Of a DNA stretch of 63,826 nt, positions 8,128-38,985 are shown piece after piece. Within the stretch, counting starts at the first letter, position 1; each line of letters opens with the position of its first letter. The stretch lies in the IMG/VR virus record IMGVR_UViG_3300010883_016104, positions 1 to 63,826 of that record. The stretch is one strand, 5' to 3'. Below the pieces are notes generated by a model that did no database searches, was not told the DNA's origin, and saw nothing but the letters and a program-made list of their open reading frames with translations. Source of the DNA: a virus. The translations under genes and the position numbers were made by a program.

Positions 8128-8772
8128 ATGCTTGTTGAAGAATACATGAAAGAATATAATCTATCAGATCCTTGGGATGTGGTAGATCTATTCGAGAAAA
8201 GGATGGCTGAGTACGGAGGTAGTAAGTATGCGGTAGCTGTAGATAACTGTACAAACGCATTGTTTCTTTGTCTTAAATATCTAAAGGCTGGTGGGGAAAT
8301 CATACTTCCTAAAAGGACATATGTCTCGGTTCCGTGCACGGCAATACATGCTGGGTGTCAAATAGATTTTCAGGACATTGAGTGGAGTGGGGCATATCAG
8401 CTGAAACCTTATCCAGTCTGGGACGGGGCGACACGTATGCGTAGAGATATGTATGTCGAAGATTCATACTACTGCATATCTTTCCACAGAAGAAAACATA
8501 TACCAATAGGTAAAGGCGGTATGATCCTAACAAACGATAAAGATGCATACGACTGGTTTAAGGTTGCGCGATACGAGGGTAGACATATAGATAGGTTATA
8601 CAAAGACGACTCTTTTGACATGATAGGTTGGAACATGTACATGCCTCCTGAGCAGGCTGCTGAAGGGCTAGAATTGTTTAAACAGACAGATGACTGGAAT
8701 GAAGATCTTGAAACCTCTGGCATGCATAAAGATTTATCAGATTTTCCTATATACGAAAGGGCAAACAGATGA
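8128..8772 (+). CDS. Short DegT-like aminotransferase lacking the C-terminal domain
   Basis: A second DegT-type protein, about 214 residues against the family's usual 360-400. The N-terminal phosphate loop region (AVAVDNCTNALFLCLKYL) is present. So is the lysine segment SFHRRKHIPIGKGG, in which Lys123 occupies the PLP lysine position. The segment RHIDRLYKDDSF and the short motif NMYMPPEQAAEGL replace the usual GYNYRM..AAIG region, after which the small C-terminal domain is missing. It begins immediately after the stop of the full-length aminotransferase and ends in an ATGA overlap, so truncation by mutation looks unlikely. It may be a minimal enzyme, or a partner or regulator of the full-length one. 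Confidence 0.7.
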   Translation: MLVEEYMKEYNLSDPWDVVDLFEKRMAEYGGSKYAVAVDNCTNALFLCLKYLKAGGEIILPKRTYVSVPCTAIHAGCQIDFQDIEWSGAYQLKPYPVWDGATRMRRDMYVEDSYYCISFHRRKHIPIGKGGMILTNDKDAYDWFKVARYEGRHIDRLYKDDSFDMIGWNMYMPPEQAAEGLELFKQTDDWNEDLETSGMHKDLSDFPIYERANR

Positions 8773-9758
8773 TACTTATTTGCTTTGGAACTAGGCCGGA
8801 ATATATAAAGCTAAAACCTCTAATGGATAAGCTGGATGGGGTTTTGGAATACAAAACTTTATTCACTGGACAGCACAAAGACCTTGTTCAGCACAGGCCA
8901 GATTACTCAATAGAAATTGAGGATGGTAGGAACAGATTGGACTCAATCATTTCGTCTACAATGAACTCAATAGACTTTGACGGAGTGTCTTGCGTCATGC
9001 TTCAAGGGGACACAACTTCGGTTTTAGCTGTAGCCCTATCTGCTTTCAATAACAAGGTTCCAGTTATACATCTAGAAGCCGGACTAAGAACCAATAATCT
9101 ACAACAGCCTTACCCAGAAGAGGCTAATAGACAGATAGTTTCTAGAATATCAGATTTACACCTATGCCCAACGATAGAGGCGGCTGCAAATTTGGCTAAA
9201 GAAAATGTGCCAACAGACAGGATTTACACTGTTGGAAATACAGTACTAGACCACCTAGTTGGAGTCAAGACAACTGACACTAATAAGGTTCTAGTAACAA
9301 TGCACAGGAGGGAGAACCACGCAAAGATAGAAGAGTGGTTTAAAGCTATAGATGAGCTAGCGCAGCAGAACAAAGAATATGAATTCTGCCTACCTATTCA
9401 CCCAAATCCCGCAGTAAAAGAAAAGACATATCTACTGGAGAATGTAAAGGTTGTAGACCCTATGTCTCATAAGGAATTGATAAAATATTTGTCCTCATGC
9501 TCATACGTCATAACTGACAGTGGTGGAATACAGGAAGAGGCGGCCTTTTTAAGAAAGCCGTGCTTAGTCTGTAGAGAGGAAACTGAGAGAGCTGAAGGCC
9601 TTGGGGTATTTTCGCTCCTCTGTAAACAACCTGAAGAACTACATGAGTTGTGTTCACAGCTGGATAACTTATCAATGGAAGGCGATTGTCCGTATGGAGA
9701 CGGGAAAGCTTCTGAAAAAATAGTAAGGATATTGAATGAATATAGTTATACCAGCTAG
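8769..9758 (+). CDS. Hydrolysing UDP-GlcNAc-type 2-epimerase (WecB/NeuC/LegG family)
   Basis: Probably converts a UDP-GlcNAc-type donor into a free ManNAc-type sugar, the committed step toward sialic or legionaminic acid, or else epimerises it at C2. Family signatures run the full length: ICFGTRPEYIKLKP at residues 4-17, FTGQHKDLV, VMLQGDTTSVLA, VIHLEAGLRT, PYPEEANRQ, VGNTVLD, VTMHRREN, PIHPNP and VITDSGGIQEEAAFL. Length of 329 is slightly short of the usual 360-380. It lies directly before the CMP-sugar synthetase and NeuB-like genes, which favours the hydrolysing NeuC/LegG role over WecB. Sequence alone does not separate these subtypes with certainty. Confidence 0.85.
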   Translation: MILICFGTRPEYIKLKPLMDKLDGVLEYKTLFTGQHKDLVQHRPDYSIEIEDGRNRLDSIISSTMNSIDFDGVSCVMLQGDTTSVLAVALSAFNNKVPVIHLEAGLRTNNLQQPYPEEANRQIVSRISDLHLCPTIEAAANLAKENVPTDRIYTVGNTVLDHLVGVKTTDTNKVLVTMHRRENHAKIEEWFKAIDELAQQNKEYEFCLPIHPNPAVKEKTYLLENVKVVDPMSHKELIKYLSSCSYVITDSGGIQEEAAFLRKPCLVCREETERAEGLGVFSLLCKQPEELHELCSQLDNLSMEGDCPYGDGKASEKIVRILNEYSYTS

Positions 9759-10350
9759 AAGAAATTCTAAAGGTCTGCCTTTTAAAAACAGGAAACTTTT
9801 AGAGTATACGTTAAAAACAATACCTAGAGATCTTGTTTCTAGCACAATAATATCTACTGACGACGAGGAGATAGTCTCTATAGGTATAAAAAGTGGTTAC
9901 AAGATACATAATAGGAGCGAGTACTCATCTAGAGACGAGGCCGCAACAAAGGAGATTATGGAAGAGGTGGTCAGGGACATGGAACTGACTGGGCCTATAG
10001 TTATGTTATACCTAACCTATCCAAAAAGAACTTGGAAAGATGTGGAAAACGCATACTATTGGTTTTTGATGAATAACGCAAAGTCTATGTTATGTAAAGA
10101 AGAAATAGAAACCCATCCTTTCATGTGTCTGTATGAGCTTCCGGGTAATAAGGGAGGCCAAGTTGTTACTAACGACCTGTACAGGAGGCAAGATTATCCA
10201 AAATGTTTTAGGTTCTGTCACATGGTTTCCATATTTGATGCAGAAGAACTAAAAGATCTAAACAAAAACCTTTACAACCAAGATACAATATATTATAATA
10301 TAGAACATTCACTAGATATAGATAATAAAGAGGATTTCAAATGCATATAA
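9736..10350 (+). CDS. CMP-nonulosonate cytidylyltransferase (NeuA/LegF-like)
   Basis: Expected to activate a nonulosonic acid with CTP. The N-terminal nucleotide-binding motif IPARRNSKGLPFKNRKLL (residues 4-21) is the diagnostic IPARxGSKxxxxKN signature of CMP-Neu5Ac and CMP-KDO synthetases. IISTDDEEIVSIG, IHNRSEYSSRDEAATKE and IVMLYLTYPKRT follow in the usual order. At 204 residues it is about 20 shorter than typical NeuA, mainly at the C terminus. An AAGGAT site precedes the ATG, which lies 23 bases inside the preceding gene. Its placement beside the NeuB-like gene supports the assignment. Sugar specificity is not determined. Confidence 0.8.
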   Translation: MNIVIPARRNSKGLPFKNRKLLEYTLKTIPRDLVSSTIISTDDEEIVSIGIKSGYKIHNRSEYSSRDEAATKEIMEEVVRDMELTGPIVMLYLTYPKRTWKDVENAYYWFLMNNAKSMLCKEEIETHPFMCLYELPGNKGGQVVTNDLYRRQDYPKCFRFCHMVSIFDAEELKDLNKNLYNQDTIYYNIEHSLDIDNKEDFKCI

Positions 10351-11156
10351 ATATAATAGCAGAAGGTGGCATAAACCACAATGGTAGTGTCGAAATAGCG
10401 AAGAGGATCATTGATGTCTCTGTAGTTGCTGGGTGCGACTATATAAAGTGGCAAAAGAGGACTCCTGAGCTATGCGTCCCAGAAGAACAAAAGGGGAAGC
10501 CTAAGTCAACTCCTTGGGGAGAGATGACATATATTGATTACAAGCATAAGGTGGAGTTTGGCACTGAAGAATACAGTGAGATTTTTGACTATTGCAGAGA
10601 CAGGATCAAATGCTTTGCCTCAGTATGGGATAAACCCTCTGTTGATTTTATGAACCCCTTTACTGACATAGCCAAGATACCTTCAGCGTTAATAACTGAC
10701 TTGGATCTATGCAAGTACGCAAGAGATAATTTTGAGACCTTAATAATATCTACTGGGATGAGCACTGAAGAAGAAATAGAACACTGTGTGCATGCCTGTC
10801 ATCCAGATGTAATTATGCATACAAACTCAACTTATCCATCTCCAATAGACGAGCTAAATCTTAGGTACATAAACTACTTACAGAATAAGTGGCCTGCAGA
10901 GATAGGGTACAGTGGTCACGAATACGGCTTAGTCACAACATTCGCTACCATAGCCATGGGAGCAACTTGGATAGAGCGTCACGTTACTCTAGATAGAGAA
11001 ATGTGGGGATCAGACCATTTAGCTTCTGTAGAACCTCAGGGCTTAATGAAGCTAGTTAAGGGTATCCGAGATATAAATAAGAGCTTGGGGGATTACGGGC
11101 CAAGAGAGGTTCTGGAATCGGAAAAGTCAAAGAGAAGATCATTGAGGGGCAATTAA
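10341..11156 (+). CDS. NeuB-type nonulosonate synthase lacking the SAF domain
   Basis: Condenses phosphoenolpyruvate with a ManNAc-type sugar to give sialic, legionaminic or related acid. Hallmarks are AEGGINHNGSVEIAKRII near the N terminus, YIKWQKR, the TIM-barrel segments FASVWD and KIPSALITD, LIISTGMS, GYSGHEYG and ERHVTLDREMWGSDH with the conserved His/Arg/Asp cluster. The protein ends soon after, at 271 residues. Bacterial NeuB is about 345 and carries a C-terminal SAF (antifreeze-like) domain that closes over the active site of the partner subunit, which this one lacks. The stop overlaps the next start as TAATG. The catalytic core seems intact; activity without SAF is an open question. 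Confidence 0.82.
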   Translation: MHINIIAEGGINHNGSVEIAKRIIDVSVVAGCDYIKWQKRTPELCVPEEQKGKPKSTPWGEMTYIDYKHKVEFGTEEYSEIFDYCRDRIKCFASVWDKPSVDFMNPFTDIAKIPSALITDLDLCKYARDNFETLIISTGMSTEEEIEHCVHACHPDVIMHTNSTYPSPIDELNLRYINYLQNKWPAEIGYSGHEYGLVTTFATIAMGATWIERHVTLDREMWGSDHLASVEPQGLMKLVKGIRDINKSLGDYGPREVLESEKSKRRSLRGN

Positions 11157-11464
11157 TGATTATATATGTAGATATAGATGGTACAATATGTGAGACAGCT
11201 GAAAAAGGACTGGACTACAGTAAGTCGTACCCAATAAAAGAGAGAATTTCAAAGATAAATGATCTTTATGCTTCCGGAAATACTATAATATACTGGACGG
11301 CTAGAGGTACAGTTACTGGTGTTGACTGGAGAGATGTGACCTTGAAGCAGTTTGAAGAATGGGGAGTAAATTATCACAGCCTTGTGATGGGAAAGCCTCA
11401 CTTTGACTTATTTATAGACGACAAGAATATAAACAGCGAAGAATTTTTTAAGGATGTGCAATGA
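11156..11464 (+). CDS. Small HAD-superfamily phosphatase
   Basis: A 102-residue HAD-fold protein. The nucleophile motif is IYVDIDGTICE, with Asp6 and Asp8 in DxDGT. IIYWTARGT is the second motif with Thr and Arg. GKPHFDLFIDDKNI holds the Lys and the terminal acidic pair. No cap domain is present, as in KDO-8-phosphate phosphatase-like or small capsule-cluster HAD proteins. It is tightly coupled to the NeuB-like gene (TAATG) and to the GDP-fucose synthase-like gene (ATGA). A role in removing phosphate from a sugar phosphate, such as a nonulosonate-9-phosphate, is plausible but inferred from position. Confidence 0.75.
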   Translation: MIIYVDIDGTICETAEKGLDYSKSYPIKERISKINDLYASGNTIIYWTARGTVTGVDWRDVTLKQFEEWGVNYHSLVMGKPHFDLFIDDKNINSEEFFKDVQ

Positions 11465-25100: not shown

Positions 25101-27145
25101 TATCTATCCAGTTCGTATGTCCAGTTTAGGTTTAGTGAGTAGGTGCCATCTTTGGGGTTCCAACTCTCAGTGGGAGGGTTGATGAAATACTTTCTTATTC
25201 CGGGCTCTTGCATTGGACTCAACTCCATTATTACTTGTTGTAGCTGCGTCCTTGTTGGCTCTGCTATGCTAGGCTTCTTTGATAAGAGAGCCTTATACGA
25301 ATAAGCATTACCACCTCCTAAGGAGTTATTGGCATGATTATTTCTATCTACATTTTCATATGCTGGATTGCCCCAATAGTTATCGAAGCCAGACTGCCTA
25401 TCAATGGTTAACTCTATGGTTACATCTCTACTGTATTCTGTTCTTCCTCCTATATACTGCAAGACAGGACCTGTGGCTCTTCCAATGACTGGTACTATAG
25501 CAAACATGTCTCCCGGATAGGTGTCATTTATGTTTATGGTTTCTGATAAAACGCCAGAGAATATATTGCTAGGTCTATTATCATATGATGCAGCATAATC
25601 TAACGTTCCACCAACCTCATCTATAGCTACGGATCGAGTTAAAGGCAAAGGGTTTAATCTTCTGTATATATCATTATAGTGAGATACGGAGAAATTTGCT
25701 CGTTTATATACTTCAGAAGCGTAACCAAAAGAACCATTACTAGTGACTTTATCATATTTAAACCAAGCGTTTACTATGGGGCTTACTATAGCCCCACTTT
25801 CATGAAATATTTCATCGTCCATAGCATCGCCTGTCTTGTCGAAACCATAAGGGGAGTTTACTGCTTCCCCTTTAGTATGAACACCTCCATACATTTTAGG
25901 GTTCATGGCAGACAGACCTTTTATATTACCATCAATACTTACTTGTACATATGGATTGTCAAGACCTTGAGATATATTAATCTTATAGGTTTCATAGGCA
26001 ACTCCTGAGGCCAATAACCAAGTCTCTGTCATACCATACGAACCCGCTGCTTCATCTATTTGTTCAGAAACAACTCTATTATAGCCACCATAAGCAGAAA
26101 TGAGGTCAAGAGTGCCTTTTCCTATCAATCCAGCAATAACTGATGGGTCAGAATTGATATCGCTGGTCCACGCACCACCTACCGCCTGAGACTTGTTGTC
26201 TGAATTTGGGTAATTACGAATTGGGCCGGGAGGAAACGTTCCTATGGTCATTAGCTTGTTCTGAACAAAACCCTTCGCCTGCTGCCAAGCCCTAAGCTTT
26301 GTACCGTCTGGAAGATAGTGTGTTTTCCCGACAGCAGACATGTTGTGGGTTATTGAATATGTTCGGGGGACTAAGAAGCCATCTTGAGCTGTTTCGGCAT
26401 TTGCTTCGTCTGTATCTAAGCTCCAGTCTTCTGAAAACTCGCCTATGAAAAATTGACTGTCGGCTACATATTGAGCTTCAGTTGTTGCCTCATAGACTGT
26501 ACTACCATCTAGGTTTCCACCAAACGCAGTACCTTCTTTAACGTATGCAGCCAAGCCCTCATTGTCAACCATTCCGTTTGCGGCCCTTAAGGTGTCAGCC
26601 TCAAGCTCGATTGTGTAGCCGCATTTGTTAACATATATACCTTCAGAAAAAGAAACAGACACAGTTCTTGGGTTGCATGCTATAGATGGAGCATCTCCAT
26701 GAATAGGTGTGATTTCCAGTAGCTGACCATCACGAGCAAAAAGTGATCTTATGGCTCTTTGCTTGCTGAATATTGAATCTAGAGAATAGTCCTCGCTGAT
26801 TATCTGAGGTGGAGGACCTTGATCGGGAGATCCAAAGTTACTGCCAGAAAAGAATAAGTTCTGAGGCCCATATCTTTTAGCAGTTCCGGGAGATGAAAGA
26901 CCTATTAGAGGTGTGTACACACTTCCGTTATCGTCTACTTCAAAAGGGATTCCGTTTAGAGCATGCGCCCCGAAAGGAGAACCTTTGTCTGCAAGAATTG
27001 TGCCAGTTAAAGTTATGCTATACGTAGCCCCAAGAGTTTCTCCAGCACCATTTTTTTTAATATCTAGGTTCATAGAAATCAATGGCGCAGGCCTTAACGT
27101 GCAAGGCGAATTACTATCGTTATTGTAATATACTGTAATTGGCAT
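25100..27145 (-). CDS. Distal-tail/baseplate structural protein, 681 residues
   Basis: A beta-rich virion protein between the giant propeller protein and the hub-like gene. It opens MPITVYYNNDSNSPC and has, near residue 25, the strand pair ISMNLDIKKNGAGETLGATY followed by TYSITLTGTILADKG. That is a layout I associate with tail-tip proteins of large environmental phages, by memory rather than by search. The C terminus has YFINPPTESWNPKDG and YSLNLNWTYEL. It may be a distal tail (Dit-like) adaptor. Its ATG overlaps the giant gene's stop (TAATG). A CGTGTATAAT element lies 161 bases upstream, inside the giant gene, and may give it an extra promoter. Confidence 0.6.
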   Translation of the reverse strand: MPITVYYNNDSNSPCTLRPAPLISMNLDIKKNGAGETLGATYSITLTGTILADKGSPFGAHALNGIPFEVDDNGSVYTPLIGLSSPGTAKRYGPQNLFFSGSNFGSPDQGPPPQIISEDYSLDSIFSKQRAIRSLFARDGQLLEITPIHGDAPSIACNPRTVSVSFSEGIYVNKCGYTIELEADTLRAANGMVDNEGLAAYVKEGTAFGGNLDGSTVYEATTEAQYVADSQFFIGEFSEDWSLDTDEANAETAQDGFLVPRTYSITHNMSAVGKTHYLPDGTKLRAWQQAKGFVQNKLMTIGTFPPGPIRNYPNSDNKSQAVGGAWTSDINSDPSVIAGLIGKGTLDLISAYGGYNRVVSEQIDEAAGSYGMTETWLLASGVAYETYKINISQGLDNPYVQVSIDGNIKGLSAMNPKMYGGVHTKGEAVNSPYGFDKTGDAMDDEIFHESGAIVSPIVNAWFKYDKVTSNGSFGYASEVYKRANFSVSHYNDIYRRLNPLPLTRSVAIDEVGGTLDYAASYDNRPSNIFSGVLSETININDTYPGDMFAIVPVIGRATGPVLQYIGGRTEYSRDVTIELTIDRQSGFDNYWGNPAYENVDRNNHANNSLGGGNAYSYKALLSKKPSIAEPTRTQLQQVIMELSPMQEPGIRKYFINPPTESWNPKDGTYSLNLNWTYELDR

Positions 27146-30100
27146 TATTTCCCTCTTATGGAAAGATTTAGTTGTTCTCCAGAAGAAACTATTCCAGACG
27201 TATACAGAGTAAATATTCCGGAAGTTTCTATTGGTACATACTTAGTGAACAGTTTTAAGTCCGCAGTAGGTTTACCTAACACTGATGGAGTATACAATCC
27301 TATACTATTATACACGGTTGCAGACGGCTGAGACAAAATATGCAAGTTCATCTCAGAGATAGACTGAGGAACTTGGCCTGAAGCGTATAAACTAAAGTGG
27401 TTTATGGTCTCTGTTCCAACTGCCACTTTTCCTAATACGGACTCTATTAATGGTCTATGTTCAGGCATTCCCTTAATAGCTGGATCGTACCCAGAGGTCT
27501 CTAAGAATATTTCTCCTTGAGGATTACTGACTATGTAACCCGTGGTCATGTACTCTTTATTTGGTCCTTCTGCCTGAGTGAAGGAGAGTGAGATGTTTTC
27601 ACTAGCTGGTGGTGAAGCAATACCTCCGGAACCTGTTAGTCCTAAGTTTGTGTATATCGTGCTTGCCTGACTTCCTATCGAAGGAGTCTGTCTTCTTAAC
27701 ATAGCGTCAAATGTGTATACAGCTCCTGCGTTTGGCATAATGCTTGATGGAGCAGCATAGTAGGAGCCACTTGTTGAGTATTTATGTCTTATAGCCCCGC
27801 CAACCAATGTATAATCAGCATCGCCTCTTGATGTATTAACCCTGTCAATAGCAACAGATCTTCCAAACATATCATTTTCTGAACCTAGGTTGTAAGCAAC
27901 AGTTCCTCCGTCGTCGTATGCAGTGACTCCAGATCTTGCCGCATATCCTTGAGCTACAATCTTCTGAGCATACTGCCAAGACTTCTTGCGATTCCCCCAG
28001 TCTGGTTTAAGCATCTCTCCAGAACCTGAGACGTCATACACATAAGTATATATAGCGCCGTTATTAATTACGACATTGCCACTTGGTACAGAATGTCTGA
28101 CTCCAGAATCGCCTAAGTCATACATTGCGTGCAGAGGAATATCGAATTCAAAGTCAAACTCTTTACGTATGAAGCTACCGTCATAGCTGACACCATCTGC
28201 GTTCCTGCTGTATATATGGTGATGGAATACATCAAAGTTATGTCCGGGAGCACCGATAGCTATGAAGTCTTCATCTATACTGACATCATGACCAAACTGA
28301 TCGGTAACATAAGCATCAGTGAGGTGTTGGTCATTATAGTCATTCGTGCCAAGTAACGTGTCTGCATCAGGGGCGCTGGCGTTGTTCCAATTATCATACC
28401 CTGCGTTGACGCTGCTAGGCTTGATCTTTCTGATGTATTCCCAGAGGAGGCCAGAGGATTCGGCGGTTGTTCCATCTTCGGTTCTTTCAAAGTAGTAAAC
28501 AGCTCCGCCACCACCATTACCGCTGATTGATAAGGTTCCTGAGGGGTCTTCTTGAACTCCTGACCATTGTATCAGATCTTCTCCAACGAAGCCGTTGAAA
28601 GGAGAACCTATGACTAATCTGTTTCTATGTATGTCTATTGAATATCCAAATAGATCGCCGGGATATCCAGAAGCAAACTGATCGAAGTCGAGGTAATCAT
28701 ATCCAGTCCTCTTGATAATTTCTGGCATACCTCCGATATAAGTAGCATCTCCAATGTCCTCATGGCCAACTATTCCCCCACTAAACATAGGAGCCATTCC
28801 ATAAGTATCAAATGTAAGCTCAAAATCCCGCAGAGCAGCTAGTTGTGCATCTTCATCCTCAGGGACTTGGAGAGATTTTATAACTTCAGAACGTTTGTAA
28901 CTTGACTCATTATCATAGAACATTCCCATCGATGGACTGTTGTAATTTTCTCCATTGAATCTAGAAGCTAAACGTCCAGAACCGACAGGGTCTACTCCTA
29001 TTCCAGAAGGGGTCATTGCATACTGAGCTGCAGAGCGATACTTACCGGCACTTCCTCTGTCTGGAGCGATTAGTTTTTGACTTAGGTTATACTTAGAACC
29101 CTGCGTTATTTTGGACAAAACCGCTTCTTGTGAATCATTGTCATCAACAATTGGATTCTTAGGATATAAGTGCCTTAAGAACAACTGGTTTTCAGATCTA
29201 TAGAAATTGCACTCGCCCTGTACTACAGAGGCATCTGATATGACAATAATCGTAGACCTTTTCTCACCAGCAGAGAATCCTGAGAATGTTTCTACTTCTT
29301 CTGCGACAACAACTGGCCCATCTTCTATATCTATCTTCTTATCTGAACAATCACTTGAAGATGAAATATCCGATTCCGTGTGGTATGAGAAGAGCTGACT
29401 TTCCATGAATGTTTCATATGTAGTAGGTTGATACTGTTCTTCAATAGGTAGCTGGGAATATCCGCCACAGTATTTTGCATGATCAGTTTTTATAGGTCTA
29501 AACTGCTCAGGCGTAACATCAACTCTTTCAGGACTACCCTTTATTAGCTCCGTAGTCTTTGTGCATGTTTTATGTGAGAATACTTTATGTGTTTTAGTTG
29601 TAATCTCTTGCTCTATTGGAAGAGGAGCACCAGAGACTTCTAAGAACCTTACTGTCTTAAGCTGAGCGTTATTAGGATTTTCTATCAAGTCGTCTGTGCC
29701 TTCTATGGCTATTGTTATTTTAGGTCCGGTAGCCATAACGTCTAGATAACCAGAAGAAGGCTGAGCTATTACAGAGGTAGCGTTAAGGTTTGCTTTTACA
29801 TTTGCCTTAAACCTTGCAAACTTAACCAGATTTTCGTTTAGGTCGAATATTACTGTAGACCCGTTTGGCTGATCTGGGTCTGCGTTTTGCGAAACTCCTC
29901 CAACGTGTATCCTTAGTGGTCTGTTTTCATTAGCCTGCTCGGATACCCAGCTATAGAATATCCTATAACCACTACCAGAAATTGCGTTGAACGTTGCTTG
30001 AGCAACGCCGGTGTTCATGTAATATTTTGGATTACCTGCTGCTATATAGTCTTCAGTAATAATACCTTTAAGCCACACGACTTTACTTCCACCAGCAATC

Positions 30101-33100
30101 GGGTAGAAAACTTCGTCTTTTTCAGACTCTGCTGAGTAAGAGCTATATGATCCTTCGTTTTTCAGAACTGTGAACTCGCCAACACTTTCTTCTTCTGTGC
30201 ATCCACTTATGAAATTATTGTCTTTGTCTATACTATAGGAACTGTTGAGGGGCAGTGCGGTATTTTTGTATTCTCCTTCGGTGTCTGAATAGATTGGGTT
30301 CATTTCCAAGCCAAGGGATTTACATATATTATGTGCATTTCTGGTGGACTCAAGCGTATGGTCATAAGTGATTACTAATGTTTTGTTACCTCTCTCTAAC
30401 CAAGCTTTTATGTCTCCAGCTTCTGAGTTGTCAGGTACTCCTGCTGAATTTGCTATCCAAGCAGTGTTGTATGTAGACATCATCTTGCCTTCAAAGTTTT
30501 CAACCACTGTATTGCCAGTAACTCTGAATAGTTTTTCAAGGAGAGAGTTCTTAAACCCATCAACAAAGGACGTTCTCTTAGTCCAGCCTCCAAGCTGCAT
30601 AATTCTGCCCTTAGAGTTGCAGGTTTTTTGCACTAAGTTAAGGTAGAACGAGACATTATGGTCATTTCCTTTAGTTAAGCTTCTCTCATTTTCTGGAAGA
30701 ACTGAAGCTATCATAACAACCTTCGAGGCTCCAACTCTTTCTTGAGATACTAATGGTAACGGATCTAAAATAACTCTTTTCTTAGTCTGAAAGGACCCCT
30801 GAGTTTCCATAACTTTTTGTAGCATGGCGTCTCTGCCGTTGAGTGGCTCTGGGTTTTCAAAGTGTTCTACAGCAGATTCAATACCATTGAACTCTAAATC
30901 AGACCAAAGAAAGGAATTTTGGGCCAGATGGTTTTCGGCAAATACTGGCCTTGAGGTATTTTTCTTAACCTCTATAAAGTGATCTTCACATATCTCGCTA
31001 TCTCTGTAGCTATCTTCTGTCGCTGGGATTACAGTGGTTACTGGTGGGAAATACTCTGCCGCCGTTAGGAGTGCTATAGGTTCTGATCCAGCAACTAAAC
31101 CTAGACTTGGGTTTTCTACATACAAAGGTGGAGGTGTTGGTTGTGGGGGACAGCAATCTGCAGAGGATGTGCCAAACTCAAAAGACCAGTTTCTTTGGTA
31201 TATCAACAAGCCATCACATTTTGACCCGGCCAAACAGCCTTCATTCCACTCAGCTCGTAAATCTCCCTTGTGCTCAATTGGCATATTACATCTGCTATTG
31301 AGTACAAACGGTGTTTCTTTTGTTTCTACACTCAATGTGTCTGTGAAAGATTCCTCAACGCAGACTGGTGTTGGCGAAGGTTTGTATACACTTGGTACGT
31401 GAATCCTAATATCACCTACGCCCTTAGCATAAATATTATAAGAGCTAACTAAGTTTGTAGATCTCTGGCCCCTCGTTTTGTAGGCTGCTGTAACATTTGG
31501 CTTCCCTTGCTCCGTGCACTCTGGCAAGGACTCATATTCATTTCTAGCTGAATGAATTCTCATCTTTGAATTGAGTTTGGAGAGTATATTATTTAGAATG
31601 TCGTTGGAATTCTTATATCTGCCATTTTCTTCCCACGTCGGGTCATTGCCTACCAGAACAAGTGTTCTATCACCAAGGGATAGCCAGTTTTTTATGTTGT
31701 CGATAACTTCATCGCTAGCCGCGTTTATCTGGGGAGTGATAATGTAGGCAAGGCCTGCATCTTGAGGTATCTTGTTATCTGTATATGCAGTTCTATTAAA
31801 GTTGTAGTCGTGATAAACATCGTTTAAGTCGGTGTAAGTATCTGGCTCAATTCCAGCAACTATGTGTGAATTTCTGTCTAGATTACCAAACCTAGTAAAC
31901 TCAACCACTTGATTGTGTTGGTAGTACTTTCTACCATCAAACACTCTTACTGCTCCAGCATTTGTTGTTGATGCCCAAGTATTGGAAGCTAATTGGTTAT
32001 CTTTGGTATCACCCTCATTTTTGTACCAAACGTCTAAGTCGTCAAACTGGTTGAAGCTATCGGTTGGTGCTCCAAAGGCAACAGTGCTTCCGTCTTCGTT
32101 GACAGCGCAGCTATATCCAAGTCTAGATGTAGGAGCCCATTTGCGATGTATAAAGTCCCACTTGCCTTCATAGGGAATGTCGTTGTATGTATAAGCGAAT
32201 ATGCTGCTGTATTCTTCAATACCCAAATCAATACGTATTTGATATCTACCACTCTCGTCTATTTCTTCGTATAGTCTCTTGGCTCCCTGTATGTTTCCAG
32301 CTTCTTTCTTGTAATTTGCTAAACGGGAAATCTCATCTTGATACGTTTCGCTACGTTCATTCAACCAAGACTCTAGTCCAGTATAAATTCCTGACCTTGC
32401 AGACGGGTTGAAGGAGTAAGCTAAGCAGCTATCTGTTGCGTATGGAGAGCCAATAACGATTGTGCTCGAATCTTTAGATGTTGCTACTGAGTGACCAAAT
32501 CTATCTGGGACTTCAAACGGTCCAGAGGAAGGGGCTTTGATTTCTTGTATAAGGTCGAATCGGCCATTTACTCTTTCAAAGACATGAACTCTACCTCCAG
32601 AATCTGGCGGTATGTTAAAGTCTATGGCGGAGGCGTTTACGAACTCAGCGCCTATACCGGAAGTTATGAATCGCAGAGAATCATTCTCTATGAGTCTTCC
32701 AGTGTCTAAGGTGTTATTGATTATCCTCTTAGACATGCTTACCCAGTCTTCTAAGTCAGCTTTAGAATTTTCATCTGGGTCTCCGTGATAATCTACTTTT
32801 GTGGTATCGACATCTGGGAAATATTCATATAGATGACCTTCAGATCTGTTTCCGTAGAAGTCTCTAACACCGCTAGCGTAACTGTAGTCTCTGTACCATT
32901 GCTTGAACTGGTTTATAGCTGGTTCTATGGCTGCTCTGCCAAGTGAGCGACTACTATCTACATAGATCCCAAAGACAACGGGTATTCCACTATTGTTAAC
33001 TGAAGAGTCATGTGGCCAAGTATTTAGGAAAGCACTCTTTATCCCGCTGAATATTGCGCCATCGGAAACTCCTATGTTTTTCCTACCTATTTTGTTGTGC

Positions 33101-36100
33101 GTTATGAATTTTGGAAGATTACCTTGGTTTGATTTTAATGTTCCAAATATGCCAGTAGGTTGGACAACCGCTACCTTTAAGTCTAGCTCTGCTGGATGAG
33201 AAGCATAGTACTTATAGAGTTTATCCCAATATCTTACTTCGGATTCTATATCCGATCCCTTATTGTCACTATAATAGAACTCGTCACTGATGACCATAAC
33301 CCCGACAGGTATTCCTGAGGTCTGTATCTCTGCAAAAGTTCTTGACCAAGCAGCAGATGGAGAGCCAACAACTATTACTTCTCTCGGTGAATCACCGCTT
33401 CCGGAAGTCATATCTACTGAATGACCAAACCTTCTTCCTTCTTGGCCTATATACCATTTCTTGTCTTTTACAGTTGGCATTCCGGGGAAGGTTATAGCGG
33501 ACTCTTGTGGTATGTTGTAGTCTCCTCTGAATCCTGATGGCATCATTAGCTTCTGCATTAGGTGCCAAGGAGCTTTTTCACCACCTCTTGTTTCGTCTTG
33601 CCTTTCGTAGACAAATACAGAACCAGCTTCTTTTAATCCGCTTCCATACTCGTCCTGTATTTGATGGAAAGGTGCGGAAACTGCCATTAGGGTATTATCT
33701 ACAGCCACAGAGAACCCGTACTTATCATCGATGTTTCTGCCAGAAGCAGGCGTTAGATCGACAGACCCGCTCATGTATGGGAAGTCTGCTGTAAACTTAA
33801 CCCCTGAGAAGGCTAGCTCATCAACACATCCAGAATCTCCACAACACGAGGCAGGATCGTGGGACGGTCCACATATACCATATTCCCACTCTTCCCAAAC
33901 TCTAGGAAGTTCAATTCTTTTGTCTGAACCGCTCTTACCTCTTAGTGTAACGTCATAAACAGTATCTGGAACCAAGCCTGTATATTTGGTTATGTTGTAG
34001 TAGTTGTTATTATATCCAGCGCCCATGTTTGTATAAACACTATGTGCTCTTGCTATCCCACCATCAACGCAACCAGACTCCGACCATTTAGTCCCATGAG
34101 ATATCATAGAAGCTTTGATTATCTTCTTAGGTGAATCGCTTGCACAAGAGCCATAACCCATCGTCTCTACGCCGCGTATCTCATCATTAGAGAATTTGCT
34201 TGTGTAATGCTCATCTCTAGCTTCTATGCCAGATCCGTAATCATTACCATTCCAGAAGAATGATTCTAAACCTTTTCCTGCTACAGTAGAATAATTAGCA
34301 GTAAACAGATTTATCTGGTTAGAAGATGAGTCCTCGCTAATTCTTCCATCACCATACAATGTTAGAGGCATCTTTTCGTTTGCTATTTTTGGAGAATCTA
34401 TAAAGAGATTCATGGCAGCTTCTGGGAAGTGATTCACTAAGGCTGGGCCACCTTTAGTGTATACGTTCATTGTTCCCGTACCAGCTCCAGCAGTTCTGGA
34501 AGTGTTGTCCCCGAGAGCAAACAAATTGAACTCTGAGAACATGCCAACTGAGTTTTCTGAAGAACCAAATGTAGACAAGGGCAAGGAATACGGGGAATCA
34601 ATCCAGCTTTGCTCGTTGTATGCAACGAGATTCATCTTGGCTTCTGGTCTATATTGACCACTAGCATAAAGGTTGAACGAGCCCGAAGATGGATAAACCG
34701 TTGGTAAAATTAATGGAAGTGTATCTACGCTGTATAAGGCTCCAGAGACGAATAGTGTGATGTTGCTCGTAAGCCCTGAAGGCACATGTTTTGTGAAGAG
34801 TGGCAAGCCTGAGGCGCCACTAACAAGATTGTCTATCTGTGTGACTGTAGGAAGCATGGATAAGTCAAGTGAAGCAAGGGATCTCTTGTCTCCACTGACA
34901 GCCAGCTTGAAATTGTCGTTGATTTCTGTAGGCTTGACAAAAGCGTCAACTAATCTAATGTGAGAACTGTGTAGGTTTATTCTAGATGTAAACTCAGAGC
35001 CAGATGGATACACTAAGTCATACTGTAAGAACATTTTATCTATGTCTTCAGAATAGTACTTCTGGCTAAACTCTGAAACCCTCTTGGATTTAGGGAATAG
35101 GGCCCATGACTCAGTAGTGTCTACAAAATTATCAAAATCAAACCTGCTTTCGATTCTTTCAAAACACATGCCTGAACTTAAGTGATGGATGGACCTATTT
35201 ATCAAGCCCCAGTTATCTTCGGTGGGAGTCCAGTATGGATCTCTTCTCTTGGTGTACAAGCTGACTATTAGCTTAGGACCTAGCTTACCGTTTTCCCAAG
35301 TTATGCTTCCACTTGAATTGTGTTCAATTATACTATCAACTACTATCGCGTCCTCTTTAAAGCTATAGCCACGAGGTAGTGTTTTGCTTATTCTAGGAGG
35401 AATTGAATGGAAGTTACTAGCCGTGTCAGAAAGGTTAAATCTTAAGAAGTCGTTCTCTACCTGTGTGTGGTATGCTATACCACTAAACCCAAGACTGGAA
35501 GGTTCACTCAAGTTTGTAACCTGAGAGTAACCAGATCCTTGGTGAACTATATTAAAGCCTATTAGGTCTCTGCCCTCTCTCTTAGTGAAATAATCAAAAG
35601 CTGAAGCAAATGAGCAGTATTTGAAAGCTCCTAAATCCCACTTGGTTGTATCTTCGTTGACATAATCCCATAGCTTATAGCTGTCAGAACTGGTTGCGTC
35701 AGAAGCTTCCCAGAAGTAGACTCTATGATTCTCTAGGAATTTCTGAGCAGTGACTTCTTTATGTAATAGGTTAGGTCCAGAAGCAACTATGTTTGTGCCG
35801 TCCATGTTGCCTGAAGCGCCATATGTAGATACGCCAAATTCGCTGACAAAAGCGTTGATACCAATACCAGAACCTGAGGAATATCCTAACGTCAGATTGT
35901 TAGTATCTGTTTTGATTGTGAATGGCGACGACTGAGCTCTGAGGTTTGTAAACGAGCTTTCAAATTCGTTGTCTGTATATAACTTCAGGCCGCTAGATTT
36001 ATGGTCGTTGTAAGTTAGTATTACGGAGAGTGGATATTGGTACTCGTCATACTTCAGGGTGTCTTTAACTGTAACCGTGTTGCCTACATTATCTTGTGCT

Positions 36101-38985
36101 TGACCACATAGGTAACCGCTCTCATAACCAAGCGTAAACTCAAGGTTCTTGCCAGTGTCCCACTTAGAAACCAAAACGCCTGAGTCCCATAGGCTATAGT
36201 TAACTCCGCTCATATCACAGTCTGGACTGAATCTTGTAAATACCGCAAACCCGCTGGCTGTATCTATTGGGCCAAAGTTGATATGTGAGTCAGCACCAGA
36301 TACTCTAACAACGTTATTGAATGCATCTGCAATCTTACCGTAGAGTTCATGATTCTGGAAGTTGTTAGCCCCACTTGCTAGAGACGTCCAGTCAGTAGTT
36401 TCGTAAGACCCGCTATATCCGGGTAGCTTATCATTGAATATGACACCGCTACTAAATCTCCAACCAATGTTGGTATACTTAGGTTTGCCATAGGTGGTAA
36501 ACAGAGTTCCGCTTAGTGCGCCTAGTCCATGACCAAGAGATCTAGACATGATTTCATTACCATTATCGTAATCAAAATCGAAGTATCCAGAGAGGAATGG
36601 AAAATCAACTAATTGGTTTTCAAAACCGAAACCAAACTGGCTAGGATCATAAGGACCATTTACTGTACCTTCTATACCTCTCCATCTTCTTGAATAGTTT
36701 GACTTTATGGTGTTAGGCGTAGTGTATGCGTGAGGTATGCCAGAGATGCTTGAAAGTGGTGCGTATCCGCTTCCGGTATTTAATATAGAATCTAACGTCT
36801 GTCGAGATGAAGGGTATATCTTACCTTCACTTCTTCCGTCTTGTATTCTTGCTATGTCTCCACCAACCGTATATAACTGCATTGCATTGGCTGGGGGATA
36901 TGTAACAGAAAGCTCCATTGAAGCAATTTCAGCACCAGAAGGCAATGGGTATATGTCAAGTATTAAATTTTCAAAGAATGTGCTTTGGCCGTAATCATAT
37001 AGCCAGCCTAGAGATATGTCGTCCTTGTAGATCTTTAGGGGTATGTCATACCACTTAAATACGCCTGTGTTGGTGACTACATTACCGCATAGTAAGTAGT
37101 GATCCCCACCATCGTTGTTTGTTTTGTTACTGGTGAAGTACTGGCTCTTATCTGATACCGGCTCTCCATCTAAAGCAAAGTGATCGGTTTTATTGAAGCC
37201 AGAGGTTGTAGGTATAGTGCCCTCACAACCAGATGGGTTTTGAAGGAACCCTCCAACTGCAGATGTCACATGTAGTAACTGGTCGTCGCTATAACCAACT
37301 ACGTCTATTGGGTAATCAGAAGCTCCAGCCGCTTTTCTAGCATAGACTCTTAAGGAAACCGTGTCTATCGGGAAGAAGTTATCAACTGGTTGGTATGAAG
37401 CTTTATAGGCTGTGTTAAAAGCCCCGCTAGGAGATAGGCCAATTGAGAAGGCTCCATTTACATAACCAAATACTCGGTCTGGCGTTTCGTGACCAAACTT
37501 GACAGTCATCTTCCCTGACTCAGTAGGTAGTATAGAATCTAGGGCTACATACTCAGTCTCGTTATTACTTCTTATAAAGTTCTTAAGGGCGTTGCTTCCT
37601 TTTATGTTATTGTAAGAAGCTCCAACGCAAGTGTTATATCCACTCCAGAGAGTGAATTTTTCTGGGTTAATTCCTGTGTCAAAATCCGTAGACTTGAACT
37701 CTGTGGGGAATATCTTTCTCTCTAGTCTCTTGCCGCGAGAGTCAGCTTGTACCATAAAGTTAAGCCTAGACTCTTTCGCAGGACCAATCCCTGAAGACAT
37801 TTCAAAGACATGGCTAGAGATTTCAATAGCTGAAATTCTAAGGGCATCTGTAGGGTTTAGGACTCTTTGTGTTCTTGTTGAAAGTGGGCTACCGTCAAGG
37901 GCTAGATAGTCATCGTCGCCAAAGTTTTGATAGAGCTTAGATGCTCTCTGCTGAAAGCCTACCTGTTGGTAACCCCTGTCAAACGGGTCATCCATGCTTT
38001 TACTTTGTATGTCAAAGCTGAGCGTGTAGCCAGAGGGGTGCGAACCGCTTTCCCACATGGCTGGATAGTTTTCGTCCCATTGATATTTTCTGGCAGGGTT
38101 TGAAGATGGCTTGGAAGAATAGGTAGCAAAGTTTACAAAGTTGCCTTTGAAGTCCGCGTCACCCCTTAGCTTAATATCGCTATACTGGGTTATCAAGCCT
38201 CCTGAAGGGTCTACTAGCTTTATATTTTTTAGGATATATTCTGGCGGTGCCTTTGATTCAAAGTTAGTAAGGGGACCTGCTGCTCTTATGTGGAGCCTGC
38301 TATCTTTTAACCAAGTTACTGGCTTGGTGATTTTGCATTTGTATGAAGAACTTGACTCTGTGTATACAGAAGAAGGTTGAATCCAAGTTGACTTTTCGTC
38401 AGATATTTTCTGGCTTTCACCAAGGTGCTTATGATAGAACCCCGTAAAGACACCTTCGTCTACGCTAGAGTAAAGAGGTGAGTGTCTTCCGCTTTCGTTT
38501 ATGAACCCAAAACTAGAAACATCTGATATGGGGTACATCTTGTGGGAAGATGGTTTGTCGTTAAAGTCTCCAGCAAACTTGTCCGCATAAATAGACTTGA
38601 AAGATCCAGACATCTTTGCTTTAGTATTTAGACCGTGAGCTAAGATTAGTCTTCCTTCTAGCTCACCAATAGCAACCATGTCTTCTTTTGAACATCTTAT
38701 TTTACTGACACGGGTGTTTACTCCGCACTTGTCATACTCTCCTGTATCTACACAGGCGCCAAATCTTATGTTAGCGGTTGTTCTAGATTTTATATCAGAG
38801 TCTAAAGAAAGAGTAGCGGAGATCGTTTTACTCTTTGAGGGGCCTTTAGTTACAAGTAAGGAGCCAACAGCAATGGCCTCTGCACTGATTCTCATGCTAC
38901 CAACGCTCATTGTAGCCGTAATCACACAGGCCGAGGCGTTAACCTTGCTACTGGTCTTTTTTACACATAGACATTCTAAAGACAT
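27145..38985 (-). CDS. Giant 3946-residue tail protein with integrin-like FG-GAP propeller, vWA-like and LamG-like regions
   Basis: An enormous probable adhesin or tail-tip protein. Approximate regions: a beta-rich N-terminal part; a LamG/concanavalin-like region at 900-1080 (INFGPIDTASGFAVFTRF); short NLF-type strand repeats at 1410-1560; seven FG-GAP-type blade motifs near 1750, 1850, 2158, 2285, 3440, 3560 and 3703 (for example YGFSVAV, FGHSVDM, FGHSVAT, LGYSCAV, FGYSIDI, FGHDVSI, FGRSVAI, each followed by a GxP-like turn). A vWA-like strand with DxSxS (GIYVDSSRSLG, near 2009) lies between blades 2 and 3. Two related Rossmann-like segments near 2407-2450 and 2838-2880 sit between blades 4 and 5. 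More strand repeats end the protein. Cys clusters occur near 1700 and 2600. It follows the tape measure by 14 bases. No signal peptide. Confidence 0.75.
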   Translation of the reverse strand: MSLECLCVKKTSSKVNASACVITATMSVGSMRISAEAIAVGSLLVTKGPSKSKTISATLSLDSDIKSRTTANIRFGACVDTGEYDKCGVNTRVSKIRCSKEDMVAIGELEGRLILAHGLNTKAKMSGSFKSIYADKFAGDFNDKPSSHKMYPISDVSSFGFINESGRHSPLYSSVDEGVFTGFYHKHLGESQKISDEKSTWIQPSSVYTESSSSYKCKITKPVTWLKDSRLHIRAAGPLTNFESKAPPEYILKNIKLVDPSGGLITQYSDIKLRGDADFKGNFVNFATYSSKPSSNPARKYQWDENYPAMWESGSHPSGYTLSFDIQSKSMDDPFDRGYQQVGFQQRASKLYQNFGDDDYLALDGSPLSTRTQRVLNPTDALRISAIEISSHVFEMSSGIGPAKESRLNFMVQADSRGKRLERKIFPTEFKSTDFDTGINPEKFTLWSGYNTCVGASYNNIKGSNALKNFIRSNNETEYVALDSILPTESGKMTVKFGHETPDRVFGYVNGAFSIGLSPSGAFNTAYKASYQPVDNFFPIDTVSLRVYARKAAGASDYPIDVVGYSDDQLLHVTSAVGGFLQNPSGCEGTIPTTSGFNKTDHFALDGEPVSDKSQYFTSNKTNNDGGDHYLLCGNVVTNTGVFKWYDIPLKIYKDDISLGWLYDYGQSTFFENLILDIYPLPSGAEIASMELSVTYPPANAMQLYTVGGDIARIQDGRSEGKIYPSSRQTLDSILNTGSGYAPLSSISGIPHAYTTPNTIKSNYSRRWRGIEGTVNGPYDPSQFGFGFENQLVDFPFLSGYFDFDYDNGNEIMSRSLGHGLGALSGTLFTTYGKPKYTNIGWRFSSGVIFNDKLPGYSGSYETTDWTSLASGANNFQNHELYGKIADAFNNVVRVSGADSHINFGPIDTASGFAVFTRFSPDCDMSGVNYSLWDSGVLVSKWDTGKNLEFTLGYESGYLCGQAQDNVGNTVTVKDTLKYDEYQYPLSVILTYNDHKSSGLKLYTDNEFESSFTNLRAQSSPFTIKTDTNNLTLGYSSGSGIGINAFVSEFGVSTYGASGNMDGTNIVASGPNLLHKEVTAQKFLENHRVYFWEASDATSSDSYKLWDYVNEDTTKWDLGAFKYCSFASAFDYFTKREGRDLIGFNIVHQGSGYSQVTNLSEPSSLGFSGIAYHTQVENDFLRFNLSDTASNFHSIPPRISKTLPRGYSFKEDAIVVDSIIEHNSSGSITWENGKLGPKLIVSLYTKRRDPYWTPTEDNWGLINRSIHHLSSGMCFERIESRFDFDNFVDTTESWALFPKSKRVSEFSQKYYSEDIDKMFLQYDLVYPSGSEFTSRINLHSSHIRLVDAFVKPTEINDNFKLAVSGDKRSLASLDLSMLPTVTQIDNLVSGASGLPLFTKHVPSGLTSNITLFVSGALYSVDTLPLILPTVYPSSGSFNLYASGQYRPEAKMNLVAYNEQSWIDSPYSLPLSTFGSSENSVGMFSEFNLFALGDNTSRTAGAGTGTMNVYTKGGPALVNHFPEAAMNLFIDSPKIANEKMPLTLYGDGRISEDSSSNQINLFTANYSTVAGKGLESFFWNGNDYGSGIEARDEHYTSKFSNDEIRGVETMGYGSCASDSPKKIIKASMISHGTKWSESGCVDGGIARAHSVYTNMGAGYNNNYYNITKYTGLVPDTVYDVTLRGKSGSDKRIELPRVWEEWEYGICGPSHDPASCCGDSGCVDELAFSGVKFTADFPYMSGSVDLTPASGRNIDDKYGFSVAVDNTLMAVSAPFHQIQDEYGSGLKEAGSVFVYERQDETRGGEKAPWHLMQKLMMPSGFRGDYNIPQESAITFPGMPTVKDKKWYIGQEGRRFGHSVDMTSGSGDSPREVIVVGSPSAAWSRTFAEIQTSGIPVGVMVISDEFYYSDNKGSDIESEVRYWDKLYKYYASHPAELDLKVAVVQPTGIFGTLKSNQGNLPKFITHNKIGRKNIGVSDGAIFSGIKSAFLNTWPHDSSVNNSGIPVVFGIYVDSSRSLGRAAIEPAINQFKQWYRDYSYASGVRDFYGNRSEGHLYEYFPDVDTTKVDYHGDPDENSKADLEDWVSMSKRIINNTLDTGRLIENDSLRFITSGIGAEFVNASAIDFNIPPDSGGRVHVFERVNGRFDLIQEIKAPSSGPFEVPDRFGHSVATSKDSSTIVIGSPYATDSCLAYSFNPSARSGIYTGLESWLNERSETYQDEISRLANYKKEAGNIQGAKRLYEEIDESGRYQIRIDLGIEEYSSIFAYTYNDIPYEGKWDFIHRKWAPTSRLGYSCAVNEDGSTVAFGAPTDSFNQFDDLDVWYKNEGDTKDNQLASNTWASTTNAGAVRVFDGRKYYQHNQVVEFTRFGNLDRNSHIVAGIEPDTYTDLNDVYHDYNFNRTAYTDNKIPQDAGLAYIITPQINAASDEVIDNIKNWLSLGDRTLVLVGNDPTWEENGRYKNSNDILNNILSKLNSKMRIHSARNEYESLPECTEQGKPNVTAAYKTRGQRSTNLVSSYNIYAKGVGDIRIHVPSVYKPSPTPVCVEESFTDTLSVETKETPFVLNSRCNMPIEHKGDLRAEWNEGCLAGSKCDGLLIYQRNWSFEFGTSSADCCPPQPTPPPLYVENPSLGLVAGSEPIALLTAAEYFPPVTTVIPATEDSYRDSEICEDHFIEVKKNTSRPVFAENHLAQNSFLWSDLEFNGIESAVEHFENPEPLNGRDAMLQKVMETQGSFQTKKRVILDPLPLVSQERVGASKVVMIASVLPENERSLTKGNDHNVSFYLNLVQKTCNSKGRIMQLGGWTKRTSFVDGFKNSLLEKLFRVTGNTVVENFEGKMMSTYNTAWIANSAGVPDNSEAGDIKAWLERGNKTLVITYDHTLESTRNAHNICKSLGLEMNPIYSDTEGEYKNTALPLNSSYSIDKDNNFISGCTEEESVGEFTVLKNEGSYSSYSAESEKDEVFYPIAGGSKVVWLKGIITEDYIAAGNPKYYMNTGVAQATFNAISGSGYRIFYSWVSEQANENRPLRIHVGGVSQNADPDQPNGSTVIFDLNENLVKFARFKANVKANLNATSVIAQPSSGYLDVMATGPKITIAIEGTDDLIENPNNAQLKTVRFLEVSGAPLPIEQEITTKTHKVFSHKTCTKTTELIKGSPERVDVTPEQFRPIKTDHAKYCGGYSQLPIEEQYQPTTYETFMESQLFSYHTESDISSSSDCSDKKIDIEDGPVVVAEEVETFSGFSAGEKRSTIIVISDASVVQGECNFYRSENQLFLRHLYPKNPIVDDNDSQEAVLSKITQGSKYNLSQKLIAPDRGSAGKYRSAAQYAMTPSGIGVDPVGSGRLASRFNGENYNSPSMGMFYDNESSYKRSEVIKSLQVPEDEDAQLAALRDFELTFDTYGMAPMFSGGIVGHEDIGDATYIGGMPEIIKRTGYDYLDFDQFASGYPGDLFGYSIDIHRNRLVIGSPFNGFVGEDLIQWSGVQEDPSGTLSISGNGGGGAVYYFERTEDGTTAESSGLLWEYIRKIKPSSVNAGYDNWNNASAPDADTLLGTNDYNDQHLTDAYVTDQFGHDVSIDEDFIAIGAPGHNFDVFHHHIYSRNADGVSYDGSFIRKEFDFEFDIPLHAMYDLGDSGVRHSVPSGNVVINNGAIYTYVYDVSGSGEMLKPDWGNRKKSWQYAQKIVAQGYAARSGVTAYDDGGTVAYNLGSENDMFGRSVAIDRVNTSRGDADYTLVGGAIRHKYSTSGSYYAAPSSIMPNAGAVYTFDAMLRRQTPSIGSQASTIYTNLGLTGSGGIASPPASENISLSFTQAEGPNKEYMTTGYIVSNPQGEIFLETSGYDPAIKGMPEHRPLIESVLGKVAVGTETINHFSLYASGQVPQSISEMNLHILSQPSATVYNSIGLYTPSVLGKPTADLKLFTKYVPIETSGIFTLYTSGIVSSGEQLNLSIRGK
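27307..27316 (-). promoter_or_regulatory. Internal CGTGTATAAT promoter-like element
   Basis: The exact 10-base core found before three other minus-strand genes lies here inside the 3' end of the giant gene, reading ACCGTGTATAATAGT. It is oriented toward the 681-residue gene, whose start is about 160 bases downstream. It could drive the distal-tail genes separately. Being inside a coding region, it may also be chance. Confidence 0.45.

Follow-up and report, generated by a model that had tools for sequence, protein, structure and literature searches.

The giant gene and its place in the tail block

This study concerns P0001, a giant protein of 3946 amino acids (aa) encoded by a single open reading frame (ORF) at 27145..38985 on the minus strand of an environmental virus record of 63,826 bases (IMGVR_UViG_3300010883_016104), which was analysed in its whole length and is referred to below as the window. 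The C-terminal half of P0001 carries seven repeats of the FG-GAP_2 family that are interrupted by large inserted domains, and this architecture is conserved among its relatives. The gene lies directly downstream of the tape-measure gene P0002 (39000..47537, minus strand; phrog_4211, 3.7e-20), as it does in most relatives, and is followed on the same strand by the conserved neighbours P0003 (25100..27145; present in 69/73 loci) and P0004 (19767..24812; 62/73 loci). In tailed phages, gene order is used to infer a distal-tail role for genes that come after the tape measure. The order tape measure, P0001, P0003, P0004 recurs in 62-69 of the 73 loci, which places P0001 in the distal-tail block, and this fixed position suggests that it is a distal-tail protein, its location in the virion being read from the gene order. 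The PHROGs collection holds no family for P0001, P0003 or P0004; the latter two belong to no known family, and PDB profile searches with both gave nothing useful.

The N-terminal part of P0001 (aa 1-1614; 34144..38985, minus strand) has no Pfam match. In a subset of relatives (L029, L036, L042, L045, L047, L068, L071-L073, L078, L080, L084, L085 and L114) two ORFs take the place of the single gene, with the break always at window residue ~1614-1630, so that the N-terminal ~1,600 residues can be regarded as a separate unit. Short strands of the form (F/M)xLYxSG are repeated on both flanks of the propeller region, at aa ~1400-1600 and 3850-3946 (34100-34800 and 27145-27450, minus strand).

Relatives and conservation of P0001

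Direct searches with P0001, P0003 and P0004, both by tblastn against phages and by scans of viral contigs, returned no matches, and no match to the P0001 family was obtained in 50,697 deposited phage records. The N-terminus of the tape measure was a more productive query: it retrieved 26 contigs, of which 24 contain FG-GAP_2, and an alignment built from these relatives led to 70 loci with relatives of P0001. These relatives are thus found on ~70 viral contigs at roughly 30-45% identity (31-38% in the first 23 contigs examined). Nearly all loci examined have the complete gene, in which the large insert separates blades 1-4 from blades 5-7, and the few incomplete cases run off the end of the contig or locus. 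A short relative, L123, has ~1,850 aa. The retention of the blades and of both inserts in ~70 loci argues that the layout is under selection.

P0001 is more divergent than its neighbours, with 31-38% identity vs 52-72% for the tape-measure N-terminus, and conservation is uneven along the protein. The best conserved block is aa 2400-2492 (mean identity 61%), and identity is lowest in the helical stretch inserted in blade 3 (22%) and in a beta-sandwich resembling a carbohydrate-binding module (CBM) described below (26%).

Three relatives (L124, L125 and L126) lie on contigs of metagenome-assembled genomes (MAGs) labelled SAR202 (two contigs from one MAG) and Verrucomicrobiales. The labels could be hints of hosts, but host assignment from them was dropped, since the contigs are most likely binned phage contigs. 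One further locus, L043 (G017:C1:4669-5802), has a separate ORF of 1102 aa with seven regular FG-GAP_2 repeats ~170 bases apart, distinct from the giant inserted gene.

A predicted seven-bladed FG-GAP_2 propeller

Seven FG motifs occur in P0001 at residues 1754, 1851, 2161, 2287, 3444, 3562 and 3705, where a sequence-only reading of the window had placed them, and strands of the GxVYVF type (G-A/S-V-Y/F-x-F) follow, at varying distances, at residues 1788, 2131, 2260, 2344, 3494, 3643 and 3754. The whole protein matches Pfam FG-GAP_2 (PF14312) with E 8.8e-18 (64.7 bits vs the curated cut-off of 23), and matches are also obtained by piece, for blade 1 (1.2e-6), blade 3 (5.4e-4) and blades 5-7 together (3.4e-12). 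The same cut-off is exceeded in 22 of the first 26 relative contigs. We built leave-one-out hidden Markov models (HMMs) from six blades and sought the omitted blade in P0001; in every trial it was the next match after the six blades of the model, and no eighth blade was found in the protein. Omitted blades 2, 3, 5 and 6 scored above background in this test, and blades 1, 4 and 7 were near it (-0.2, 3.7 and 0.3 bits; shuffled maximum 3.3-5.1). Pairwise profile comparison of the blades collected from relatives gave E-values of 1e-8 to 8e-12 for pairs without blade 2. The observation of seven repeats is sound and does not reflect a chance pattern.

All blades are encoded on the minus strand. Blade 1 covers aa 1751-1818 (33532..33735). 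Blade 2 is split in two, with strands A and B at aa 1848-1877 (33355..33444), supported by the motif, the leave-one-out HMM and the AlphaFold2 (AF2) model, and strands C and D at aa 2129-2152 (32530..32601), assigned from the AF2 model. Blade 3 (aa 2158-2285; 32131..32514), which is placed by the Pfam match and the AF2 model, has in its B-C loop a helical insert predicted at aa 2190-2256 (32218..32418). Blade 4 (aa 2286-2366; 31888..32130) is defined by the leave-one-out HMM and the AF2 model. The Pfam match to blades 5-7 covers blade 5 (aa 3440-3530; 28396..28668), blade 6 (aa 3558-3685; 27931..28314) and blade 7 (aa 3700-3765; 27691..27888), the last of which ends after strand C.

The propeller region, ~2,060 residues long, was modelled as two separate halves. 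The model of aa 1740-2795 has a predicted local distance difference test score (pLDDT) of 76.5, with the blades mostly at 85-95, and the model of aa 2785-3800 one of 69.6; the expected strands are present in both. Blades 1-6 have four strand signatures each, the outer strand bearing a conserved aromatic residue in most of them, and blade 7 ends with its third strand, GAVYTF. A short segment before blade 1 (FSGVKFTADF, aa 1727-1736; 33778..33807, minus strand), conserved as ySG.KL, is a candidate for the outer strand of blade 7. Rings of seven blades are usually closed by a strand before blade 1 that completes the last blade, and in P0001 the seven blades would likewise close into one ring. It is very improbable, in our estimate, that blades 1-4 and 5-7 instead form two partial propellers or an otherwise split structure. 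The ~1,070 residues that separate the halves and their separate prediction would allow for this, but there are exactly seven repeats, the last blade lacks an outer strand while a conserved strand precedes the first, which is the usual closure, and integrins tolerate a large insert between blades.

The blades do not match the integrin type. No match to PF01839, the integrin-type FG-GAP family, was found in the window, and calcium loops of the form Dx[DN]xDG are mostly missing: they occur in 0/57 sequences in blades 1, 2, 3, 5 and 7, in 14/57 in blade 4 and in 2/57 in blade 6. Both observations assign the propeller to the FG-GAP_2 lineage, which is known from bacteria. A bacterial FG-GAP_2 protein from an Acidobacteria MAG (L127) belongs to the same repeat family, and it likewise has seven repeats, a strand that precedes the first blade and no outer strand following the last. 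Its blades are compact and free of inserts; P0001 differs by its three insert modules and its N-terminal part of 1,600 aa.

Integrin-type propellers have been described in bacteria (PMC3192720) and placed in the VCBS supercluster (PMC8023676), in both cases in texts that do not mention phages or viruses, and lectins with a beta-propeller fold are found in the tail fibres of contractile injection systems (PMC12923769). Our literature searches for phage tail proteins with FG-GAP repeats returned no publication on them. Fold matches in the BFVD database include giant-virus FG-GAP proteins and a protein of an uncultured Caudovirales phage (A0A6J5S3H5), with E-values down to 8.5e-8; these matches are at the fold level only, and the inserted layout is described here for P0001 and its relatives.

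A predicted alpha/beta domain inserted in blade 2

The first insert (aa 1878-2128; 32602..33354, minus strand) begins after the VVGSP segment of strand B and ends before the GGRVHVF segment of strand C, thereby interrupting blade 2. It was earlier taken for a von Willebrand factor A (vWA)-like domain lying between blades 2 and 3; it does fall between FG motifs 2 and 3, but inside blade 2 and not between two blades. Within a blade, the FG-GAP residues lie in loops 1 and 3 on one end and the calcium loops on the opposite end (PMC3192720), and the B-C loop position thus puts insert 1 at the FG-GAP end. In integrins the I domain comes after a proline, between blades 2 and 3 (PMC10659397), so insert 1 would stand one hairpin earlier, with both domains projecting from the same end of the ring.

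In the AF2 model insert 1 is predicted with pLDDT mostly 80-95 as an alpha/beta domain of the vWA-like order b1-a1-b2-b3-a2-b4-a4-b5-a5, with strands at 1890-99, 1932-44, 1961-67, 2004-09 and 2051-55 and helices at 1907-26, 1975-89, 2023-37 and 2081-92. The first strand, GVMVISD (aa 1895-1901), and the DxSxS motif (aa 2010-2014; 32944..32958, minus strand) are both present as the earlier reading described. Asp1901 (33283..33285, minus strand), placed after the first predicted strand, is Asp in 48/57 and Asn in 7/57 sequences, and [DE]x[ST]xS is kept in 56/57, so that D/N1901 (55/57) and the motif persist in a domain whose mean identity is only 35%. The DxSxS strand is the fourth strand of the model and not the first.

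In this predicted, unpermuted topology the metal ion-dependent adhesion site (MIDAS) is not canonical, because strand 1 bears only the Asp/Asn, DxSxS follows strand 4, and the stretch between strands 3 and 4 lacks a conserved Thr. On that reading both acidic positions of a MIDAS would be present, with the Ser-x-Ser on the other strand. At the level of sequence, no vWA family of Pfam matches any of the 53 insert 1 sequences, hhalign against 14 bacterial vWA sequences is not significant (3.4%), and a PDB profile search with insert 1 gave nothing useful. In comparison with vWA (PF00092), insert 1 shares the predicted order of strands and helices, a conserved acid on strand 1 and [DE]x[ST]xS on strand 4, and differs in having neither a significant profile match nor the canonical DxSxS on strand 1. 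By sequence it is not recognised as a vWA domain, and by its predicted fold it is probably related to one in shape.

One way to restore a complete MIDAS is a circular permutation, in which FTDE (1899-1902) would correspond to the TDG of the fourth vWA strand, DxSxS to the first-strand motif and Thr2095 to the MIDAS Thr. FTD does resemble the fourth-strand motif, [DE]x[ST]xS is nearly invariant, Thr or Ser is found at position 2095 in 49/57 sequences, and the best local match to the vWA profile pairs DxSxS with vWA strand 1. This last match is the non-significant one given above; moreover, after the first helix two strands follow each other without a helix between them, a step that fits the b2-b3 pair of an unpermuted vWA domain, and the Foldseek alignment to I-domain integrins is sequential. 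We regard a permutation as unlikely.

A second alternative, which we hold as quite possible though short of an even chance, is that insert 1 is a generic Rossmann-type domain and that the preference for I-domain integrins described below would be shown by any alpha/beta domain at about this place. No stand-alone vWA domain occurs among the 50 best PDB matches of the blades 1-4 model in Foldseek, vWA-named viral proteins appear among the fold matches only at E 0.15-0.4, and the absence of a vWA family match points the same way. On the other side, the order of elements and the placement of a conserved acid and of DxSxS on two central strands fit vWA.

A second insert between blades 4 and 5

The insert of ~1.1 kilo-residues noticed after blade 4 is real. 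It spans aa 2367-3435 (~1,070 aa; 28681..31887, minus strand) and contains two related alpha/beta domains. D1 (aa 2400-2790; 30616..31788, minus strand) shows weak matches to DUF4350 (PF14258) in 23/47 relatives, the best at 4.2e-4, and a PDB profile search with it gave nothing useful. D2 (aa 2792-3280; 29146..30612, minus strand) resembles D1 in hhalign (94.6%, E 7e-8 over 75 columns) and holds the DUF4350 match of the window protein (0.0083; 16.9 bits, under the curated cut-off of 30.4). Like DUF4350, both domains carry an ITP..WL..GD..LVLVG block and a C-terminal strand of the VISD type. DUF4350 itself is presumably similar to GldG and glutamine-amidotransferase-like folds.

Within D2 the AF2 model predicts a beta-sandwich (aa 2985-3125; 29611..30033, minus strand) with pLDDT mostly 70-92. 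Foldseek returned a CBM4 structure, 1gui (E 3.5e-3), which has the same size as the sandwich, and the match would on this ground belong to it, making the sandwich CBM4-like by predicted fold.

Comparison with integrins

A profile of aa 1740-2795, that is of blades 1-4 and the module that follows them, was compared with the PDB and found integrin alpha-6 first, at a weak E of 0.032. Eight of the nine matches with E up to 1 are integrin alphas, the alpha-IIb chains coming after alpha-6, and the sole non-integrin is a glycoside hydrolase (0.68). In Foldseek, the first eight PDB matches of the blades 5-7 model are integrin alphas (3.8e-5 and weaker), and ranks 1-8 for the blades 1-4 model are the alpha-L, alpha-X and alpha-E subunits, which carry I domains; integrins without I domains follow from rank 9 with ~138 aligned columns. 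Among the alpha-X chains, the two long ones (4nen, 4neh; 1063 and 1084 residues) give alignments of 663 and 654 columns with E 3.7e-6 and 1.1e-5, vs 138-140 columns and E 0.01-0.05 for the chains of 880-884 residues (3k71, 3k6s), which, judging by their length, presumably lack the I domain. The I domain is the most likely source of this gain.

The layout of P0001 resembles that of the I-domain (alpha-I) integrins in its seven-bladed FG-GAP propeller and in the alpha/beta domain that, at the FG-GAP end, separates FG motif 2 from FG motif 3. The differences are considerable: the phage insert occupies the B-C loop of blade 2 and not the junction between blades 2 and 3, DxSxS is at the fourth strand and not at the first, most blades have no calcium loops, a further insert follows blade 4, and no integrin legs or beta subunit were recognised. 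The integrin-alpha-like layout read from the sequence stands as a seven-repeat propeller in a tail-block protein, but not in the position of its insert.

Of the two origins that had been offered, convergence or distant descent, the former is the better reading. Descent, with propeller and vWA domain taken together from an integrin-bearing eukaryote or from an inserted ancestor common with integrins, would account for the weak but specific sequence matches to alpha-6 and alpha-IIb and for the Foldseek preference for alpha-I integrins. It has to contend with blades that match FG-GAP_2 and not PF01839, with plain bacterial seven-repeat FG-GAP_2 proteins among the relatives (L127), with the general lack of Dx[DN]xDG calcium loops, and with an insert that sits at another loop than the I domain and places its DxSxS differently. 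The I domain was, in addition, acquired by integrins once, in the ancestor of Olfactores within chordates (PMC10659397), which makes descent of the inserted layout unlikely. We give such descent hardly any credence, and the integrin resemblance is far better accounted for by a convergent layout.

Proposed function

We lean, with limited confidence, towards P0001 being a tail-tip or baseplate display scaffold of uncultured long-tailed phages whose module-bearing face contacts the host. In this phage group it would form a sizeable part of the tail tip or baseplate, with its C-terminal 2,200 residues folded as one seven-bladed FG-GAP_2 propeller whose loops at the FG-GAP end display three modules. 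The B-C loop of blade 2 would hold a vWA-like alpha/beta domain with a conserved acidic/DxSxS cluster, and that of blade 3 a variable helical bundle; the third module, made of two DUF4350-like domains and including a sandwich of the carbohydrate-binding type, would lie between blades 4 and 5. The face that bears them most likely meets the host surface, as integrin heads use the same face, and Asp1901 and the DxSxS cluster may hold a metal that mediates this contact.

Several points weigh against this proposal. The structural models are multi-domain and partly uncertain (predicted template modelling scores of 0.54 and 0.49), a property that also accounts for the low Foldseek TM-scores of the top matches (~0.06-0.25, with root-mean-square deviations near 20 A). 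Closure of the ring is argued from halves that were modelled apart, and insert 1 has no vWA sequence profile match. Finally, a gene kept in all relatives examined with highly conserved blocks is less typical of a receptor-binding protein.

In a tentative alternative that deserves to be taken seriously, P0001 is a structural baseplate or hub that organises fibres as well as neighbouring tail proteins, its inserts bind other phage proteins, and host recognition is left to other genes such as those at 53503-57465 and 57438-60659. Its position next to the tape measure, the same inserts across relatives, blocks with up to 61% mean identity, unusual for receptor-binding parts, and the further long fibre-like genes upstream are all in its favour. 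It is less easily reconciled with the greater divergence of P0001 relative to its neighbours and with the helical insert and the CBM-like sandwich being the most variable parts (22-26%), which would suit exposed binding surfaces.

The display scaffold may be specified further, as an independently evolved, integrin-like adhesion head of phages, with a vWA-like metal site in which the halves of the MIDAS are strand-swapped (Asp on strand 1, DxSxS on strand 4), a ligand-binding face and cation-dependent attachment to the host. We offer this more detailed version as speculation that is rather improbable in full.

Other genes of the window

Two of the genes mentioned above encode long proteins on the minus strand. 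The protein of 1320 aa at 53503-57465 begins with a region containing RCC1-like GWG motifs, and propeller-like 'SMSADGNYLVAG...' segments occur towards its end; it has no Pfam or PHROG match and is possibly a second propeller fibre. The fibre-like protein of 1073 aa at 57438-60659 has short repeats resembling 'SIGKHAGSGVSNSTGSVFIGEEAG'. On the plus strand, positions 1239-11464 hold a surface-sugar cassette comprised of a glycosyltransferase, epimerases, DegT aminotransferases, a UDP-GlcNAc 2-epimerase, a cytidylyltransferase and NeuB, pointing to phage-encoded synthesis of a nonulosonic (sialic-type) acid.

Conclusions

P0001 defines a family of giant proteins of the phage tail block that is conserved and widely distributed, and it offers a well-supported example, from outside animals, of an integrin-like propeller carrying inserted domains. 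The strand-swapped adhesion head, if true, would be a convergent solution in a widespread group of uncultured phages. Should the insert bind metal and ligands of the host, adhesion heads of the integrin style would have more than one origin, and the propeller would become a candidate determinant of host recognition in phages that are known from metagenomes only.

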